Shown: in pieces, positions 1 through 34,847 of the stretch
How positions within the stretch are numbered: position 1 is the first letter of the stretch
Layout: the number at the start of each line of letters is the position of its first letter
NCBI RefSeq assembly: GCF_000516985.1
Contig: NW_006917092.1
Coordinates: 3,240,619 to 3,304,618 of the forward strand
DNA: 64,000 nucleotides
Source: Pestalotiopsis fici W106-1
Lineage: Eukaryota; Ascomycota; Sordariomycetes; Amphisphaeriales; Sporocadaceae
Direction of reading: 5' to 3'
Translations under genes and position numbers: made by a program
The notes under the pieces: generated by a model
The model's input: only the letters and a program-made list of their open reading frames with translations
Databases searched by the model: none
Told to the model about the DNA's origin: nothing

Positions 1-3000
1 CTAGGCTGATGACGAATGCTGTCTAGACTCTAGAAGGCAGCGATGTGGTGGGAAACAATAATGCTGATGAAAAGCTTAGAAGGGAGGAAGGGGGTGGTGG
101 GTTCGATATTGCTAGCCTGACTCGACATGATAGGGAATGAATGGCTGGCTGGGAGTACGTATTGAATCGATCGTTTGGCAGTACTGTCTAGTCTGTTCAA
201 GAACCCTGGTGTGTCAGTGTGAGATGAATTGGACAAGTAGTAGTGATTATGCCCCGAAGTATACGTATTAGGTACCAGGCTTGCGATTAGGATTGTTTCG
301 AGAAGTTTGTTTCTTTATGCATCTGGTCTCTGTTCTACAAATGCCGTCTTCACAGCTTTCAAGCTTGCAGTAGCTACGGTAACAGCGACTTTGGATGGGC
401 GGAGGGCTGTGACTGAACTGGGGCTTGAATTGGATGCTGTCACAGGATAGAACATATGGGTAACTCCTTCTAGAGATGTCTTCTCCAACACCCCCGGGTT
501 GTCTGAGAGTAAAGCAACTAGACAATGTCCGGCAACTCAATATTTGGTACGCCCTGGACATCGGAATGAATTGGCTTTTGTGGTCCAGCGAATCCAACTG
601 TTGCCGGCGAAGTGTATCTGTAAACCCCCCGGAATCTTTTAGGCGGTAGAGGTCGGGGCTGTATGGTGCTAGGCATTCTGTCGAATGTCTCTCGGCAGCG
701 CTGGGCGGTCCTCTTGGCATAATGGTCTAAAAAGCCTTGGATTTTTCGGACTGACCAACATGTTTGTGCATTTGTGTACCTCTGAGCTTTATCTGGGGTT
801 GCATGTTTCGATCGACAACAGGGCGAAAGGAACTAGAGAAAGAACAATAAGGCCTTCCTTCCACTAGGGAGGCAGGCGAGACTGCAATTAAGAATATGCC
901 AAGCGCAGCTGCTTAATTGCGATACACGCACCGCCACACTGGCGAGTAAGAGTACCTGGGGGCGGCGGCATGTCTGTATAGGGTAGCAAGTACTGCGGAA
1001 ATTCTGCCAAATAGTTGGCGAGGCGATCAGCAAATAAATCGTAGACGATGATGTGATGCAAAGCCATGCCCAGTGCTTGGCTCTTGACTAAAGATCAAGC
1101 AATCGGCGGCGGCTGTTTACTGTATGTGCATCCGCCTAGATATTGAGTCAGGGATGTTCCGGCGGATATGCATAAGCTTCTAACGATGCCAACAAGCTTA
1201 TTTTCACGGCGAAGACGCTCCAACCTGTCCAGCTTAGTTGGTTGTGCCGCTAGTGGAGCACCACCAATGCTGGCAGTTGTCTGCTGAAGCTTTCTTACCA
1301 CCACTAGAAAGGTGCCTATAGAATTCGGTGAACATTGAAGGTGCACTCATGCATCCTAAAGTGCAGAGAGCATCAATTGTTGGATCATGTATGATTTTAG
1401 GCAACGGTGGTTTGAAGCCTTCCTGCCTTCTGCGCCTTTTCCTCTCTCTTTCCCCTCATGGTTTAATAACCATGCATACTTGTGATGCCATCCGTCTTAC
1501 TCGTAGCATCATGATCTGGCTGTTATCGCATGCTCTTGGCCCATTTGCACTCTCTTCTGAAAGCATTTACAATTTACAGTTACATTGGCAGCACCTACCG
1601 TGGCACCGGCCCTGGCCCTATATGCGCTGGGCCCTATCATGGTATGTTTGCAACGGCAAGTTCCATCGAGTTGCTCTCCCGCCAACCAGAGCCTCGTCGA
1701 TCACCAGCCTGCTTTGGCTATACGTCCGCGCGAGTCAAAGGCTCTAGCTTACGAGTCTTGGGTAGTACTCTTCATGACGACAGAGAACTATGCTTGGCAC
1801 TTATCGGCCGTTATAGGTGGTCAGTCAGCACAACGACCGTCTGCCCTACCGCCAACTATACTACCCACTACATGGTTTATGTCTCTTCCTAGCAGTGTAT
1901 TTCCACATCTTATATGCGTGTCATCATGAGTTCCATGGAGGCTTTGTCGCATTTCTTATGCATTGCCGTGCTACACGCGTCTACCAGTCGTGCATGAGAC
2001 TCTTGATCCGATCTTTTCTTTGGGTCCGGACAGGGCGGTCTGTCGCATTTGTTTCCTCGCCATAGGCATAAAATGACTGGTGCGACGAAATCTGTCCTCG
2101 AACAATCAAAGATCCACTGCGTCCGCCCATCTTTGGGGTAATGACGGCGCCGTCAGTGGCACTGCAAGATCCCATGGTCTGGGCATCCCTCCACTGTGAC
2201 CCGATTTTTGTGTTCGGCCAAGAAATTACAGGTCCGACTATACGAGAGCGGCTGGTGGTCAGCAGTGGCAGCAAGGCCCGGCTCCAGGGCTTATATTTAA
2301 CTAGGTAGCAATTGTTGAACATTAGCATTGAATTAAAGATTTGAGACATGAGGCTTTGCAATATGCTATATACTATTCGCATAGCAAAGCCAACCTGCAG
2401 GTGAAACCCCCAATACCTCAACTTAGTATAAACATTTCTTGTCTCATTGCCCAAGTCGCATCTTTTGGCACATGATGCTGGAATGACGGAAGGAATTACA
2501 CTTTCAGCTCAGTCAGCGACTTGAACATTGACTTTGCAAGGCAATACATTCATGGTTCAACGGCCAACACCGAGGCTTACCCATCCGGCGGCAGGTAAAG
2601 CTTGTCGTGCAAGTGGCGAATCTCCGTTCTGACGCACCATAAGCTTATACCCGCAGCCGATCCGGCTGAGGTTGGGTTTGTGTGACCCCGCGGGAGGTGT
2701 AAATCTCAACTCTCACTTTTTTTTTCTTCTTTAATCCTTTCCCTCGCACACCCAAGACCCGCCCCCTCGTCTCACCTCATCATGATACACCCATTTTCCC
2801 TATTCCCGTATGGTGTAGCCTTGCAAAAGGGGGGGACGTGCCAGGTGTTTGACGTCCGCTTTTGGATTCGACTCTGGCCTGTTTCGTCAAGATTGGGGTC
2901 CCCGTTCGGGACGCACAAACATACTTTTAGTCCTCCACCCCCCAAAAAGAAGGACTCGATCATTTCTTTATTTCCGCGAGCCTGGCAGCCTCGAAAAGAA

Positions 3001-25115: not shown

Positions 25116-28100
25116 TTACCAGTAGGCCGGCCGAAGTCCGCTGAAGTTGCCTAGAGTACTGGAGAGGTTCTCGTCACCATCCTTTTTCCGATGACCGGCA
25201 AGCTGATCCAAGTTCCAAGTCAGCATTTCCCTTATGTTAAAGTACACAAGACTATATTGGCCAAACGACAGACGATAGATTGAGACTTACCTCAAGTTGC
25301 ACACCCTTGTGTAACGATACCAGCCAGTCAACATAGCTTTGAGCCTCATTGTTTCGATCCTCAACCAGCATTCTCGCAAATTCGAACTCGGCTCCGTCAA
25401 TACCTTGCCGAGCAAGCTGGATGGTCAGAGCCTTGGAGCCACGTAGAGTCTTCAGGAACTCGATTATGTTTCGGACTTGAGCATTTAAATGCGTATCGAG
25501 ATGCGGCAAGCTTGAGCTATACGGGTCCAGCGCCTTGAGACTATCCTTCCCTTCTCCAAAGAGATCAGACAAGAGGTTGGGTGATGTTTGGCTGTGGAAC
25601 CAGATGAGACATTGCTGGCCATTGTCGACAAGGTAGACACCACCCGGCTCAATGCGTGAAAATGACGCACGAAGACTTGGTGGCACCTTGAGGTGGCCAT
25701 TCTCGTCTGGAAATCCATCCTCGGCAGTGAGATTGTGTATCGGGATCATGCGTGGGTATAGGTAGACACTTAACTCCCCAGCGCCCATGGATCTGACCAT
25801 GCGCATCTCATGTATTCTGCGATCCGAGCTCTCATTCCCGCCCTTGAATGCACGGCATTTCAGGAGACCGAGCATGTACATGGAAAATTCTTTGAGTCTC
25901 TCGGGCATGATCAACTGGCCAGGGGGATGTGACGATGTTGTCAAATTCTTCCTGTAATTGGCGAGCACATCAATGGTTCTCTCCGTGAGGTGCTGCCGGG
26001 TCTCCTTTAGTGTTGCCGAGGTCGTTGCAAGCTTGGTGGCGGCTTCCTTGGCCAAAATCGATACAACGGCATCTTGATCAATCATCTTGACGCATTCTCG
26101 AGTCACCTCGCTGACACTGGCGATAATGTTGCAGCACCGCACGCGCCGTTGACCCGAGGCTGTCGTGTACAGAAGTGCTGACTGGAAGTGTGCGTCTAGC
26201 TTGGCGTCTAGCTTGCCATCATAGCCGAAAGTCACTCCAATCGCCTTGTCGGCATCAATGACTCCGATTTCGAGATCTGCACCAAAGGTGTGTTGCTGCA
26301 GATTGTAAAGTCAGTATCCAACTATGCATAGATTGTCTAGCCGCACTTACGAGGAAAGAACCATGATAATCCTTGATCTGGAGACCATTGGAGCACCGCA
26401 CCTTCATCAGTGCTTGGTAGCCAGTCTCCCTGGTCACCGTGTGCGTGATCTCAAGCGAGAGTTTGGCATTGTCTCGACCAGCCACGAAGTTGGGATAGTA
26501 GAAAGTCTCTCCGCCAGTCAAAGAAGCGACATGTCCAATAGTGGCAATGTCCAAATAACCACCGGATGGTGCAGCCAGGAAGAAGTCGACTCCAATTCCC
26601 GAAGCAACCATTTTCTCAGCCGTTTTCTTCCAGCCAGGATGCTCAGCCGTGTAGAGCTTCTTGTCCAGCTCTCCACCCGGGTGCTTGCCGTCGTCTCTCA
26701 TGAAGAGTCGGCCGGGACCCCATGTCGGAAGTGCGGATAAAGAGCAGACAACCTTGCCGCCAGTCTTGTCGAGAGCAGCAATGGCCGAGTTGAGCGTAGG
26801 CAGTAGAGCGGGCTCTGGGTTCTTTACGCTCGAAAACAATGTAGGTAATCTGGTCAGCAAGGATGTGATGACGGCCCTTGATTCCACGGGATCAACGAAA
26901 AGACCATCGCTGAGGGGCACAAAAGGGTCTTCCACATCTGGCATGACCATCATCTGAGGTTGTTCTAGCGATGCCTGTTGATTGATCAGTGACTGCCCTG
27001 TCAACAATGCACAGCAAAACTTACGTGGCAACTGTAGAAGTGTATTTCCTTGTCATATGTCAGGAAGCCCACTTTGGCACCCTGGGGCAGCCTCCGCTTC
27101 GGTTCTCCATTTTCGTCCACTTCGTCTTCAGCTGAATATAGTGCGGAAAGGATTCCATCACAGAAAGCCTCAAGGAAGCCCTTGTTGAAGGCTTCTTGAG
27201 TAACATCGATCAAGAAGAGCCAATTGAGACCAACGGGCTCCTTGGTCCAGTACTCTTTTGGAACTGTGAACTCGACTGTGCCGCGGCACAATTCGGGACG
27301 CTGGTCTCTGTCCACTCTTACACCCTGGGGTGTTGTCGCACAGAAGTATTCTGATGGTGTATCGTTGGGATAAGTGCAAAGGTTGCACACGAACTTTCCA
27401 CCACCGTTTCTAAACACCATGAAAGGATTAATCTGTTGAATTCGTTGTTAGTCTTCATCATATCTGTACGTAGGCTGGTATGTTGGTGCTCAAAATGTGG
27501 GGTCGCCTCTGATGTAGTCAAAATAGCCAAGCATAAACCCTTTCGCGAGCTACTTTTGGGAATGTTTTACAAGTTGCGACAAAGAGAGGACTCACGCTAC
27601 AGTATCAGATTAGCATTGATCCAAACAAAGACCGAGAAGCCATCCCCAACGTAGTGATCTACCGACACTGGCTCAAGATCTGGCAGAAAGCCCAACCCAA
27701 TCTTGAAGGAGAATTATACTTACTAGGCTCTACATCTTCTGCACCTTGGCGGGCCAACATCACCAAAGTCTAACACGGGGACTTCAAGTTCGCCCGGTTG
27801 AAGCTTGGCCAAAGGCTGGACAAGTAGACCCATGGGCAGGCCAGTGCTTTTCAATCCTTCTGCCGTCGCAGGGATATTGTTCATGGTCAACCTAGTGAAT
27901 TGTGGTGCAGAATTGCCCTGATCGTAGGAGACAAATGATGTCGCGGCGGGAGGCGGCACGTGACGCTCGAACGTGGGATACGTGTTGTTCAGGTAGAACT
28001 GCTGGGGGACGTCTCGCGAGACCGGGACACTGGGGATATCGTCAGGCGATACCTGACCAGCGGCAGATGCTGGCACGAATGCAGACTGAGGACCGGCGTC

Positions 28101-28664
28101 AGCAGCTCCATTCCTGGCAGCGAATTCGGCGGGAGAGGCTAGCGCAGGGTTGAATGGCTGGTTTGCGGGCGCTGGGAATTGGTTGCCGAACTGGCTTGGA
28201 GTGCCTGGCTGTCCGAGGAACTGGCCACCTGCTTGAACTGACGGATCGGCATTGAGAAATGCAGTTTGCGACGTGCCAGCAGGCGGTATGCCATTGAATG
28301 GCTGCGAAGAGCCAGCGGGGGCTTCAACACTGTGGAAAGCATGTCTGTCCTTCTTCTTCTTCCTTGCCCCGTGCTGCGCTGCGTCCGCAATGCCCAGACC
28401 AGCCATCTGAGAAGTCAGATCCGCCTGTCCAGCGTATTGGTCTTGACCCTGAGGCGGTCCGTATCCTGGTGCGCTGGCCGGAGAAGGAGCACCATAGTAT
28501 TGCTGCTGGGCCTGAGGTGCAGGCGATCCAAATTGTTGCTGATATTGCTGCTGGGCGACATTTGGTGCAAATTGAGGTGGCGCGGGCTGACTTGTTCTGT
28601 TCGGGTCGTTGGGATCGAGCTGCTCGCCTTGACCAAGCGAGTGGTACATGCTGTAGTCGGCCAT
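25116..28664 (-). CDS. sec24: COPII coat protein Sec24
   Basis: Cargo-binding subunit of the COPII inner coat; pairs with Sec23 on ER exit membranes. Exons: 28664-27724, 27596 (one base), 27432-27025, 26974-26351, 26295-25291 and 25202-25116; 1021 residues. Residues 1-310 are a Pro/Gln/Ala-rich tail. Next comes the zinc finger PPRCRRCRAYINPF followed by CNLC (two CxxC pairs), the trunk (VGLNWLFLIDVTQ, VGFLTYDKEIHFYS), the beta-sandwich with QHTFGADLEIGVIDADKAIG, a helical domain and a C-terminal gelsolin-like domain with YLVDNGQQCLIWFHSQ. The last exon adds 28 residues ending in RPAYW. All introns have GT-AG ends. The Tyr of RAYINP is encoded across three exons as TA + C, because direct joining of exons 1 and 3 would create TAA. 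The gene diverges from CFT2. Confidence 0.95.
27596..27596 (-). other. sec24: Single-nucleotide exon (C) of SEC24
   Basis: On the minus strand the context is TACTGTAG|C|GTGAGTCC. The upstream intron (27723-27597, 127 nt) starts GTAAGTAT and has a GCTAATC branch-like site about 14 nt before its AG. The downstream intron (27595-27433, 163 nt) starts GTGAGT and has GACTAAC about 14 nt before CAACAG. Exon 1 ends in TA and exon 3 begins ATTAATCC, so the single C supplies the third base of Tyr (TAC) at a position where Sec24 proteins normally carry an aromatic residue before xNPF. Confidence 0.85.
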
Positions 28665-29619: not shown

Positions 29620-32472
29620 ATGTTCACCTTTACTCCGCTACAGGGCGCCAAGTCGGACTCCACGGCAGTTCAGTCCATCCTCGAGCTCGATGGCGGCGTA
29701 AAGGTACTCGTCGATGTCGGCTGGGACGAGACATTCGACCCCCAGAAGCTCAAAGAGCTGGAAAAGTATGCTGCTTTATTCCCAGAATCAAACGTTTGTT
29801 CACCTTGACTGACTTTGCCCACCAGACAAGTACCGACTCTGTCGCTCGTTCTCCTCACCCATGCGACCGTCTCCCACCTTGGCGCATTCGCTCATTGCTG
29901 CAAGCACCTTCCATTATTTACGCGCATCCCCGTCTATGCGACGACACCCGTCATCTCCCTGGGAAGGACACTTCTGCACGAGCTCTATGCAGCCACACCG
30001 CTCGCCGCTACTACGATACCCAAGTCGTCCCTGAATGAAGTCTCGTATTCCTACAATGCCCAGGATGCGGCAACAGAATCGAACATCCTGCTGCAGCCAC
30101 CTACACATGAGGAGATTTCAAAATACTTTTCATTGATTAACCCGCTCAAATACCTCCAGCCGCACCAGCCGCTAGGCTCGCCATTTTCACCGCCTCTCAA
30201 TGGCCTATCGATTACCGCATACAACTCGGGCAGCACTCTGGGCGGAACTATTTGGCATATACAACATGGCCTCGAATCCATCGTGTACGCTGTGGACTGG
30301 AACCAGGGCCGTGAAAACGTATACGCGGGCGCAGCCTGGCTAGGTGGTGCTGGCGGCGGTGGTACCGAAGTCATTGAATCATTGCGGAAACCGACCGCCC
30401 TCGTCTGCAGCAGCAAAGGAGCAACAAAGTCATCACTACCGAGGGCGAAGCGAGACGAGCCCCTGCTCGAGACGATAGAAAGGTGTGTCACCAATGGAGG
30501 CACGGTGCTTATACCTGTGGATTCGGGCGCAAGAGTCTTGGAGTTGGCCTACCTTCTCGAACACGCATGGCGACGACATGCTTCCAGCAATGATGGTAAA
30601 CTTCATGCTGCCGAACTGTATCTTGCTGGCCGAAGCATACATAGCACTATGCGATATGCTCGTAGTATGCTGGAATGGATGGACGAGCGAATTGTACAAG
30701 AGTTTGAAGAGGTTGCAGATGGGGCTAAGAAAACCAACGGACCGGCCGACAACGCGAACCAAGCCAAACAGGGAGGACCGTTTGATTTCAGATACTTGAA
30801 GCTACTTGACAGAAAAGGTCAAGTCGACAAGATGCTTGCTAAAGCAAACGGCGAAGGGTCAGTTGGTAGAGTCATACTGGCTAGCGACGCGAGCCTAGAA
30901 TGGGGGTTCTCGAGAAATGCTTTCAAAGCGCTGGTGCAAGACCCCAAGAACCTGTTGGTTCTCACTGGGCTCCCCTCTCCGCCTGCTGACGGATCTACAA
31001 CCATGTCTAGCATCTTTCACAAATGGTGGAAAACTGCAGTTGAGGAGAATGGGAAGCATGGCGTTGATGCCGTTGGAACAGGTATCGGGGTGGATGGAGC
31101 GCTGATCCAAGTCCCAGGCGACGGGCGGGAGGCAACACTGCGAAATGTTCAAAAGGAGCCACTTGAAGGCGACGATCTTGCAGTTTACAGGTTTTGGCTT
31201 GCACAACAGCGTCAGTTGCAAGATACACTGCAAACGGGCGGCACCGAAACACTTGATACAGGCCTTGACATTGATGATGCTTCTTCAGAATCCTCGTCCG
31301 AGTCTGGAGACTCTGAAACACACCAACAGGGCAAAGTCCTTAATGTTGCTGCCACACTGGGTAGGGCCACTCGAAAGAAGGCTGCTCTGGCTGATGAGGA
31401 CCTCGGCCCTAACATTCTACTAAAGAAGAAGGGCGTCTATGATTATGACCTTCGCGGCAAGAATGGTCGCGACGCCATGTTTCCTTACCCGGTCCAGAGG
31501 AAACGAACGGACGACTATGGCGATCTCATTCGCCTCGAAGACTTCCTGAAGACTGATGAGCAGCAAGAGGAAGCAATGGCCGGAGACGAGGATGGTAAAC
31601 AGGAATCTCAAGACAATCTTGGCAAGAAGCGCAAGTGGGCCGACTCTGCTGGCAACGCTGGTTCAACCTCAGGGACCGACAAGCGACCGAAGCTGGAGCG
31701 CAATATGTCAGACGATTTCGAGCTGTCTGTGGTCGATGGCCCCATGAACAATGACCTGGACGATGTGCCAGACGATGAAGAGGACCAGGAGGAATCTTCC
31801 ACGGGACCATTCCGGCTCAGTATCACAACGGAACAAATTGCTGTCGCCCTGGGCATAACTTTTATCGATTTTAGTGGTATACACGACAAGCGAAGTCTCC
31901 ATATGCTTATTCCTCTCATCCAACCTCGGAAGCTGGTGCTTACCGGCGGTAGCGCCTCGGAGACAGATGACCTATCAGTAGAGCTGCCGAAACTATTCCA
32001 ATCTCAGATTGATATCTTTATGCCAGATGTGGGCGCAACAGTTGACGCTTCGGCGGATACCAACGCCTACACAGTCAGCCTAGCACCTGCCCTTGTAAAG
32101 GGCCTCAAATGGCAAGACGTCGGAGGTGTCAAGATTGCCACACTGGTTGGCCGACTGTCTGTGGCTGACGAAGCGAAGAACCCCATCCTCGATATGCCTG
32201 CCGCTCTTACAACCGGGCTGACTGCAACACACTCTGTTACTCCCTTCCACGTAGGAGATCTTCGACTGGCAAATCTGAGAAAGGATCTTAGGGATAGTGG
32301 ATACACGACAGAATTCATGGGAGAAGGTACACTATTGGTACAGAACTCAGTCATAGTCCGCAAAGCCGCTACTGCTGGTCGCATCACTGTTGAGGCGGCA
32401 GGCTGGGAAACTGATACGGTGCAAATCGTGAGAAAGAAAGTGTATGATAAGCTAGCTGTTCTCGCCAGCTAA
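29620..32472 (+). CDS. CFT2: Cleavage and polyadenylation factor subunit Cft2 (CPSF100)
   Basis: Structural subunit of the mRNA 3'-end processing complex; a nuclease-dead partner of the Ysh1/CPSF73 endonuclease. Two exons: 29620-29765 and 29826-32472, intron GTATGC...CACCAG, 930 residues. The N terminus MFTFTPLQGAKSDS and VLVDVGWDE are typical of the metallo-beta-lactamase fold. The metal-binding HxHxDH motif is replaced by THATVSHLGAF, as expected for the inactive subunit. A beta-CASP domain follows, including TVLIPVDSGARVLELAYLL. An acidic/Ser insert lies near residues 530-560, and a basic stretch KKRKWADSAGNAG with KRPKLERN is a probable nuclear signal. After an acidic stretch the C-terminal domain resumes with VLTGGSASETDDL. 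It shares an upstream region with SEC24; the pairing makes no known functional unit. Confidence 0.94.
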
Positions 32473-33116: not shown

Positions 33117-34847
33117 ATGCGCTCATCAATTGCATTGAGCTTGCTGGTCGCCAGCTCGGCAGCAGTGGCGAAATACATTGTCCCTGGTGCTCGGTGGCTC
33201 GACACAGATGGTGAGCTCGTCAACGCTCATGCGGGTGTGGTGTTGTTTGATGAGAATACCGAAAAGTTCTGGCTTTTTGGAGAGTACAAGATCCAAAATG
33301 CCACAGAGGGGGCAGGAGTTGCGGTATACAGCTCTGACGACTTGGCAACGTGGGAGAACCATGGCCTGGCTCTAGGTGAATTGCAACCTTTCAGATATTT
33401 TGTACCAATATGAAGTGCCGAAAATAAAACTGACAAATACTCATCCCTAGAACCAATTGAAGGTCACCCGTACATCTCGCCAAGCAACATTATCCAAAGA
33501 CCAAAAGTCGTTTATTCAAATTCGAGTCAAGAGTATCACATGCACTGGCACGCGGATAATTCAAGTTATGGTCTGCTTCTCCAAGGATACGCCACGGCGC
33601 CTACCATTCAGGTGCGTCAGCAACTCTTCGTAAATTGCAATAGGATCTAAGTTGTAAAAAAACAGGGGCCATACACCTTTGTCAATGCGACGGCGCCACT
33701 GGGGAACTGGTCGCAGGATTTTGGCCTATTCACAGACTACAAGGACGGGCGATCCTATGCCCTGTACTCGAATGGAGATAGTCTGTACGGGCGAGATGTT
33801 TACGTCACGAGATATGATGAGGACAAGGCCGAGCTCGAAGAAGTCGTCCACCGTTTCCCAAAGTATGATCTCGAAGCACCGTCAATTGTACAGACCGAGG
33901 ATAGCTACTACGCCATAATGAGCCACAAGACGGGCTATCGACCCAACAATGTCGTGGCTTTTCGGGCAGATTCACTGTCTGGGCCATGGTCACAGCCATG
34001 GATCATAAACCCGCTCAACACCCGTGGCTTGAACAGCCAAAGCGGTAATACACTACGCATTGTCGGGTCAAAGCAGACCACATACCTCTACATTGGTGAT
34101 CAGGTAAGATGTTCCATCGAGAGTCACGATTGAGTTGCTTTTTGCTACATACTAATTTGACGGGGAAATTTCTAGTGGGACTCGAACTCTCTTTGGGAAA
34201 GTCGATATATCTGGCTACCACTGAATATTGACGACTCGAAAAAGCACCTTAGCATCGAATGGTATGATGTTTATGATCTAGACGTCAAGACAGGCGAGTG
34301 GTCCGTTGTCGAAGGTAAAACGTATTATAGCAAGAATGCACTGGCTTCTGGTAATGCCTATCACCAGGAGGCCAACTTTGGCAGTAATGGTGTGATTGCT
34401 ACTGGCATCTATGGAAATGACAGTACCGTTACTTTCACCAACATTGAGGGTACCGGTAAGCCGCAATGGGTATCGTTCTACTATCAGAGTGAGTGTTGTC
34501 TCTAAACTTACTTAATGCCTAGCCAATCATTCGTGCATCCAAGCTAATTCCATGCGATAGACACCGATGACATGGGTTTTGGAGACCAACCAGGCGGCTC
34601 ACCCGATCGAATTGGTGGATCATGGCAGTTGCGCCGAATCAGCAGCGTTGTGGTCAACGGCAACACGCAAAATCTCGAAACCTTGTTCCAAAGAGACACT
34701 CACAAGGGCATCATTTTGTCCACGCCACTGCAATTGACCTTGAATCGAGGCTGGAATAACTCCATCACCGTGGGAGGGCTGTTGAACGGTTTCGATTACA
34801 AGGGTGCTGATTTGGACAGGATCGTGGTGTATCCTCCAGAGCAATAA
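33117..34847 (+). CDS. Secreted GH43 enzyme, exo-beta-1,3-galactanase-like (GH43_24 type)
   Basis: Glycoside hydrolase family 43 five-bladed propeller; the closest remembered group acts on beta-1,3-galactan (arabinogalactan side chains). Five exons: 33117-33375, 33451-33611, 33666-34103, 34176-34488 and 34561-34847; 485 residues. A signal peptide MRSSIALSLLVASSAAVA is followed by IVPGARWLDTDGELVNAHAG, typical of this group. Further blocks are IIQRPKVVYSNSSQEYHMHW, YDLEAPSIVQTEDSYYAIMS (candidate acid Glu within LEAPSIV) and SQSGNTL. Members of this subgroup lack the usual Asp general base, and a Gln is proposed to act instead; Gln in NSQSGN is a candidate. The C-terminal part (GSWQLRRISSV to VVYPPEQ) looks like a beta-sandwich or carbohydrate-binding module. 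Several NxS/T sites fit secretion. Substrate is inferred. Confidence 0.88.

Follow-up and report, generated by a model that had tools for sequence, protein, structure and literature searches.

We consider it highly probable that the gene for the COPII coat protein SEC24 of Pestalotiopsis fici W106-1 contains a constitutive exon of a single nucleotide, a C at position 27596 of the window (the whole 64,000-nt stretch of DNA analysed), whose flanking introns would be removed in turn and which would have arisen through the loss of a coding base. The sequence, the reading frame, the strength of the splice sites and the constraint on the protein were observed directly, and from these we infer that the exon is used, in which order the introns leave and how the structure arose. 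A one-nucleotide exon at this place had been proposed in the initial annotation and is supported by being the only enumerated way to the expected protein through good splice sites, by two related gene models that are broken at the same codon and by the uninterrupted frame, with the tyrosine in place, of the closest relative.

SEC24 lies on the minus strand of the window, with its ATG at 28664 and a genomic span from ATG to stop of 3549 nt (28664-25116; Table 1). The spliced model joins six coding pieces (941, 1, 408, 624, 1005 and 87 nt) across five introns (127, 163, 50, 55 and 88 nt), all of them GT-AG with GTAAGT or GTGAGT donors, and encodes 1021 residues followed by a stop. The spliced protein matched five Pfam families (zf-Sec23_Sec24, trunk, beta-sandwich, helical and gelsolin), as expected of a SEC24 COPII coat protein; the exon 1 frame alone matched none. 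The junction under study falls within the Pfam zinc finger (residues 305-343), with the tyrosine at residue 314. The divergent neighbour of SEC24, on the plus strand (29809-32472), is a CPSF100/CFT2-type cleavage and polyadenylation gene with Lactamase_B_6, Beta-Casp, RMMBL and CPSF100_C matches in Pfam.

Table 1 Features of the SEC24 gene, in window coordinates.
Feature	Position	Strand	Basis
Exon 1, ATG at 28664, 941 nt, ends GCC TA	27724..28664	-	sequence, homology
Intron 1, 127 nt, GTAAGT...CTGTAG	27597..27723	-	spliced model
Intron 1 branch-like CTAAT, presumed branch A 27610, 13 nt from acceptor G	27609..27613	-	motif
Putative 1-nt exon: a C at codon position 3 of Tyr 314 (TAC)	27596..27596	-	model, path search
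Intron 2, 163 nt, GTGAGT...CAACAG	27433..27595	-	spliced model
Intron 2 branch-like CTAAC, presumed branch A 27448, 15 nt from acceptor G	27447..27451	-	motif
Coding exon after junction, 408 nt, begins ATT AAT CCT (INPF)	27025..27432	-	spliced model
Intron, 50 nt	26975..27024	-	spliced model
Exon, 624 nt	26351..26974	-	spliced model
Intron, 55 nt	26296..26350	-	spliced model
Exon, 1005 nt	25291..26295	-	spliced model
Intron, 88 nt	25203..25290	-	spliced model
Terminal coding exon, 87 nt, includes stop	25116..25202	-	spliced model

The junction elements described in the initial annotation were recovered base for base on the minus strand, namely GCCTA/GTAAGT at 27724/27723, CTGTAG/C/GTGAGT with the C at 27596, and CAACAG/ATTAATCC at 27433/27432. 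The range given there, 27433-27723, corresponds exactly to a gap of 291 nt (127 + 1 + 163), and the branch-like sites that it placed before both acceptors are present as CTNAY matches (CTAAT at 27613-27609 and CTAAC at 27451-27447); a second branch-like site, CTGAT, starts at 27608 (minus strand) near the intron 1 acceptor. Direct joining of GCC TA to ATT AAT CCT does read TAA, the stop that had been predicted, and moving the donor or the acceptor by one base at this GCCTA/ATTAAT junction gives TAG. A Tyr codon at the junction requires one pyrimidine; the single C makes it TAC and restores RCRAYINPF as claimed, in agreement with the path search and with the constraint on Tyr among relatives. 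C27596 shows two properties of a single-nucleotide nuclear exon: it stands alone between an AG and a GT, with a U2-type intron on either side (CTGTAG/C/GTGAGT), and it is required for the frame and for the conserved protein.

The tyrosine is strongly constrained. Among 259 different proteins collected as relatives (the best 120 from each of three protein searches that gave 954, 338 and 1477 matches), 254 have C-x2-C-[RKQ]-x-Y immediately followed by [IVM]NPF[ML], two reach INPF without the Tyr motif (P0002 and P0003) and three have no INPF match (P0121 and P0122, which are exon 1 frames, and P0210). YINPF was read through in 117 of the 120 rows of the second search (best 120 of 338), and the solved Sec24C chain (3eh2) has Tyr at the equivalent place. 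The best named matches to SEC24 among the matches listed were from Pestalotiopsis (93%) and Seiridium (84%), which both belong to the Sporocadaceae.

Splice paths across the gap were enumerated from GT donors at 27758 downward, with GC donors also admitted for single introns, to AG acceptors, with introns of at least 40 nt and an inner exon of at most 150 nt. Four single-intron and 76 two-intron paths were in frame and open; VGPPRCRRCRAYINPF was restored by two of the 76 and by none of the four, and both of these two-intron paths also give RCRRCRAYINPF. Scored on donor, acceptor and branch criteria, the path through C27596 reached 16 of 16, the path through T27667 reached 13 and every remaining path at most 14, the next best after C27596 scoring 14 and adding 14 residues. 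Of the solutions enumerated, a one-nucleotide exon alone combines good splice sites with the expected protein. That the cell should use T27667 instead is barely credible: this second AG-Y-GT site of the 291-nt gap, CAG/T/GTCGGT, would also encode Tyr (as TAT) in an identical protein, and its first intron of 56 nt would come close to the 50 and 55 nt of other introns in the gene, but its donor GTCGGT is poor, no CTNAY site lies upstream of its acceptor and its score is 13 against 16.

A longer internal exon or a different donor/acceptor pair, with a finger that tolerates extra or missing residues (for instance CRRCRAYVSPLFVATCKTFPKINPF via a donor at 27553), is highly improbable. The further 74 two-intron and four single-intron paths are in frame and open, yet none yields RCRRCRAYINPF, the spacing found in 254 of the 259 collected relatives (from the best 120 of 954, 338 and 1477); the two-intron paths of this kind score no more than 14 of 16, and the sister sequence P0001 has neither an insertion nor a deletion at the junction. 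Single-intron paths from the GC donors at 27728 and 27750 were rejected for the loss of Ala-Tyr or more, those from the GT donors at 27758 and 27744 for the loss of at least one zinc-finger cysteine, and six paths with larger internal exons that retain both flanks for the 3 to 19 residues added inside the finger.

P0001 is 97% identical to the SEC24 of the window, has one open frame of 1020 amino acids on a 3513-nt contig and reads RCRAYINPF. It appears cDNA-like because its contig is shorter than the ATG-to-stop span of the window, and it is best read as a spliced transcript, as deduced from these lengths; proteins from its source (lgn) resemble frames translated without splicing, P0122 and P0123 both continuing into introns. 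Should the window and Pestalotiopsis have the defect in common, it would be expected in the P0001 genome too, and the P0001 transcript would then reflect splicing that restores Tyr. P0121 (85% over exon 1) ends in RCRAYVRSQ and a stop, and P0122 (82% over exon 1) in RCRAYVRVINTLM and a stop; Tyr is followed in both by GTN and then AGR or CGN, which points to an intron directly after the Tyr codon in these kin. Their VR fits either the first or the second donor as the older one.

Trees were built from hand-chosen sets of 19 (exon 1) and 12 (full-length) of the 259 relatives. The full-length tree has P0001 as sister to the window (99/96) and Pestalotiopsis next (80/99, below the starred level); the exon 1 tree places Pestalotiopsis elsewhere with weak support (67/79). 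Weighing against our reading, P0121, P0122, P0004 and P0007, whose junction is ordinary or whose YINPF is uninterrupted, fall in the same 8-row clade (100/100, full-length tree), in which the branching order is mostly unresolved and P0121 and P0122, of odd letter make-up, fill about 30% of the columns.

The splice motif around C27596 is not readily explained by chance. YAG-N-GTRAGT was present in 0.41% of 20,000 first-order simulated gaps, in 0.16% with a pyrimidine as middle base and, together with an upstream CTNAY and any middle base, in 0.085%, percentages that are indicative because the patterns were picked after the site had been seen. The loose form AG-Y-GT appeared in 37% of the simulated gaps and is not rare. 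Over both strands of the 64-kb window YAG-N-GTRAGT occurs twice; the other occurrence, at 34485 on the plus strand, resembles an ordinary donor closing a coding exon (TATCAGA/GTGAGT) and not a micro-exon. Introns 1 and 2 showed no copy relation (longest common word 7 nt) and the sole match of the 291-nt gap in the genome (51.7 Mb, 20 contigs) was itself, so that neither an introner nor a duplicated intron is indicated.

Two gene models from other genomes are irregular at the same place. P0002, from Pestalotiopsis sp. NC0098, reads CRRSMSQINPF, with SMSQ in place of CRAY, and P0003, from Seiridium cupressi, reads DFGE/INPF, with 12 residues missing, the same escape as the sole enumerated GT-AG single-intron path ending at the window acceptor (27758 to 27433). 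Both appear forced at the junction, as if annotation pipelines had hit the same frame problem in separate assemblies, and annotation software that met an out-of-frame donor after Tyr might produce such breaks; a non-GT donor, among other causes, could also explain the oddities. A 9-nt stretch possibly behind the MSQ of P0002, similar to 27676-27668 of the window, was dropped, because 12% of simulated gaps would be expected to hold a match this close, with one mismatch. At the zinc finger the deposited models appear incorrect and merit re-annotation; if the one-nucleotide exon is read rightly, P0002 would be without the second cysteine of the first pair of the finger and P0003 without both.

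The failure of P0002 and P0003 at this junction also argues against an assembly or sequencing error in the window, in which a coding C or T would be missing between GCCTA and GTAAGT and a single intron of about 290 nt would follow the Tyr codon. We regard such an error as very unlikely: a structure with the base present does exist in kin, given the intron directly after the Tyr codon of P0121 and P0122, but the junction is no homopolymer (GAGCCTAGTAAGT) and a full-strength AG-C-GTGAGT with its branch-like site would have to be a coincidence (0.085-0.41% of simulations, depending on the pattern).

A genome search in which the best candidates were scored found one SEC24 and one paralogue, 31% identical to it. 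The paralogue (L008; G000:C2:4575583-4578790, frame 501-2708, plus strand) is uninterrupted, has the same five Sec23/Sec24 families and no intron at the finger, and we take it to be probably SFB3/LST1 (Sfb3/Lst1-like). SEC24 is essential in yeast. The description of the exon in the initial annotation as essential for a housekeeping gene draws on this background and on one SEC24 having been found besides the 31% paralogue among the best candidates scored. The likelihood of a decayed gene copy, or of a translational frameshift that bridges the frame instead of splicing, is almost negligible: direct joining does hit a stop at once, but the remaining frame is intact with consensus introns, no other SEC24 turned up among the best candidates scored in the genome and the cDNA-like contig of P0001 has an unshifted frame.

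An acceptor and a donor one base apart can hardly be bound jointly. In SEC24 one base separates the intron 1 acceptor AG from the intron 2 donor, so that these sites would not be recognised simultaneously and the two introns would be removed consecutively. For APC11, the available text of Guo and Liu describes simultaneous splicing as very unlikely and suggests successive removal (PMC4674806). The simplest order would take intron 1 out first, giving GCCTAC/GTGAGT, and intron 2 thereafter; the match of donor 2 to CAG/GTAAGT rises from 5 to 6 of 9 after removal of intron 1, a weak hint at this order. Either order would lead to an identical mRNA, in which TAC ATT AAT (Tyr-Ile-Asn) would make the Sec23/24 zinc finger complete, and skipping of the C or retention of intron 1 would bring a stop immediately after RCRA. 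A [D1,2] stwintron, in which the donor of the external intron is interrupted by the internal one after its first base, was rejected, as the downstream piece, C/GTGAGT, contains a whole donor and total removal of the gap gives TAA. The resemblance to fungal stwintrons, described in Hypoxylaceae and Xylariaceae, lies in neighbouring introns and consecutive removal reactions (a word search in one paper, PMC9024468, gave no match); whereas the [D1,2] stwintron splits a donor and retains no exon base, SEC24 must keep one base and has both donors whole.

As to origin, an intron would have been gained after the Tyr codon (TAY/GT), the last base of exon 1 would then have been lost in the Pestalotiopsis line, and a cryptic AG-C-GTGAGT within the older simple intron would have rescued the frame. 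Loss of the C before the donor, with rescue by the one-nucleotide exon, is the likeliest history; in the reverse history, a second intron would have been inserted between the A and the C of the Tyr codon. Since kin appear to show a plain intron after the same codon, together with the broken models, an origin by a lost base and cryptic AG-N-GT rescue is directly testable.

Nuclear one-nucleotide exons in print, according to the portions of the papers available, comprise APC11 (PMC4674806, PMC8831610), VPS55 (PMC8831610) and Fusarium CYP621A, which Nelson and Syed (2026) describe as the second case and the first from a fungus and for which they propose the loss of an exon-edge base and rescue by a cryptic AG-N-GT (PMC12940212). 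As described there, CYP621A is a close parallel, a nuclear fungal gene with a single base between two introns, essential for the frame in a conserved motif and with the same type of origin proposed; it differs in being a rarely expressed P450 with G as the middle base and SRA reads across the junction, whereas in SEC24 the putative exon, read from the genomic sequence, is a C followed by a GTGAGT donor, with relatives that have an intron directly after Tyr. Plant APC11, a core cell-cycle gene, likewise needs its constitutive one-nucleotide exon for the frame (Guo and Liu 2015, PMC4674806), but the available text reports a 422-nt intronic stretch and an A as the exon, demonstrated by cDNA and reporter constructs and later by RNA-seq (PMC4674806, PMC8831610). 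Plant VPS55 is, like SEC24, a protein-transport gene with a one-nucleotide exon followed by a GTRAGT donor, conserved in land plants, but it is a different gene in another kingdom and forms without the exon are described in some plants, in the part of the source available (PMC8831610). Mitochondrial one-nucleotide exons are described, in the available texts, from fungi (PMC12308204) and a placozoan (PMC5436844). Our literature search, which covered few subscription journals and preprints and approached the fungal family only through Pestalotiopsis, found no paper on a one-nucleotide exon in SEC24.

The SEC24 exon is very probably an addition to a known, very rare kind of exon. A further reading, which we hold to be unlikely as a whole, is that the exon is conserved in Pestalotiopsis-like fungi, perhaps including Seiridium, and also acts as a checkpoint on Sec24 output, with two splicing steps that must both occur and whose efficiency would set COPII coat levels. 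The site would place a one-nucleotide exon in a gene of the secretory pathway for which a single copy turned up among the best candidates scored, beside APC11, VPS55 and CYP621A, and, if our reading is true, standard annotation would mis-model SEC24 wherever this exon occurs.
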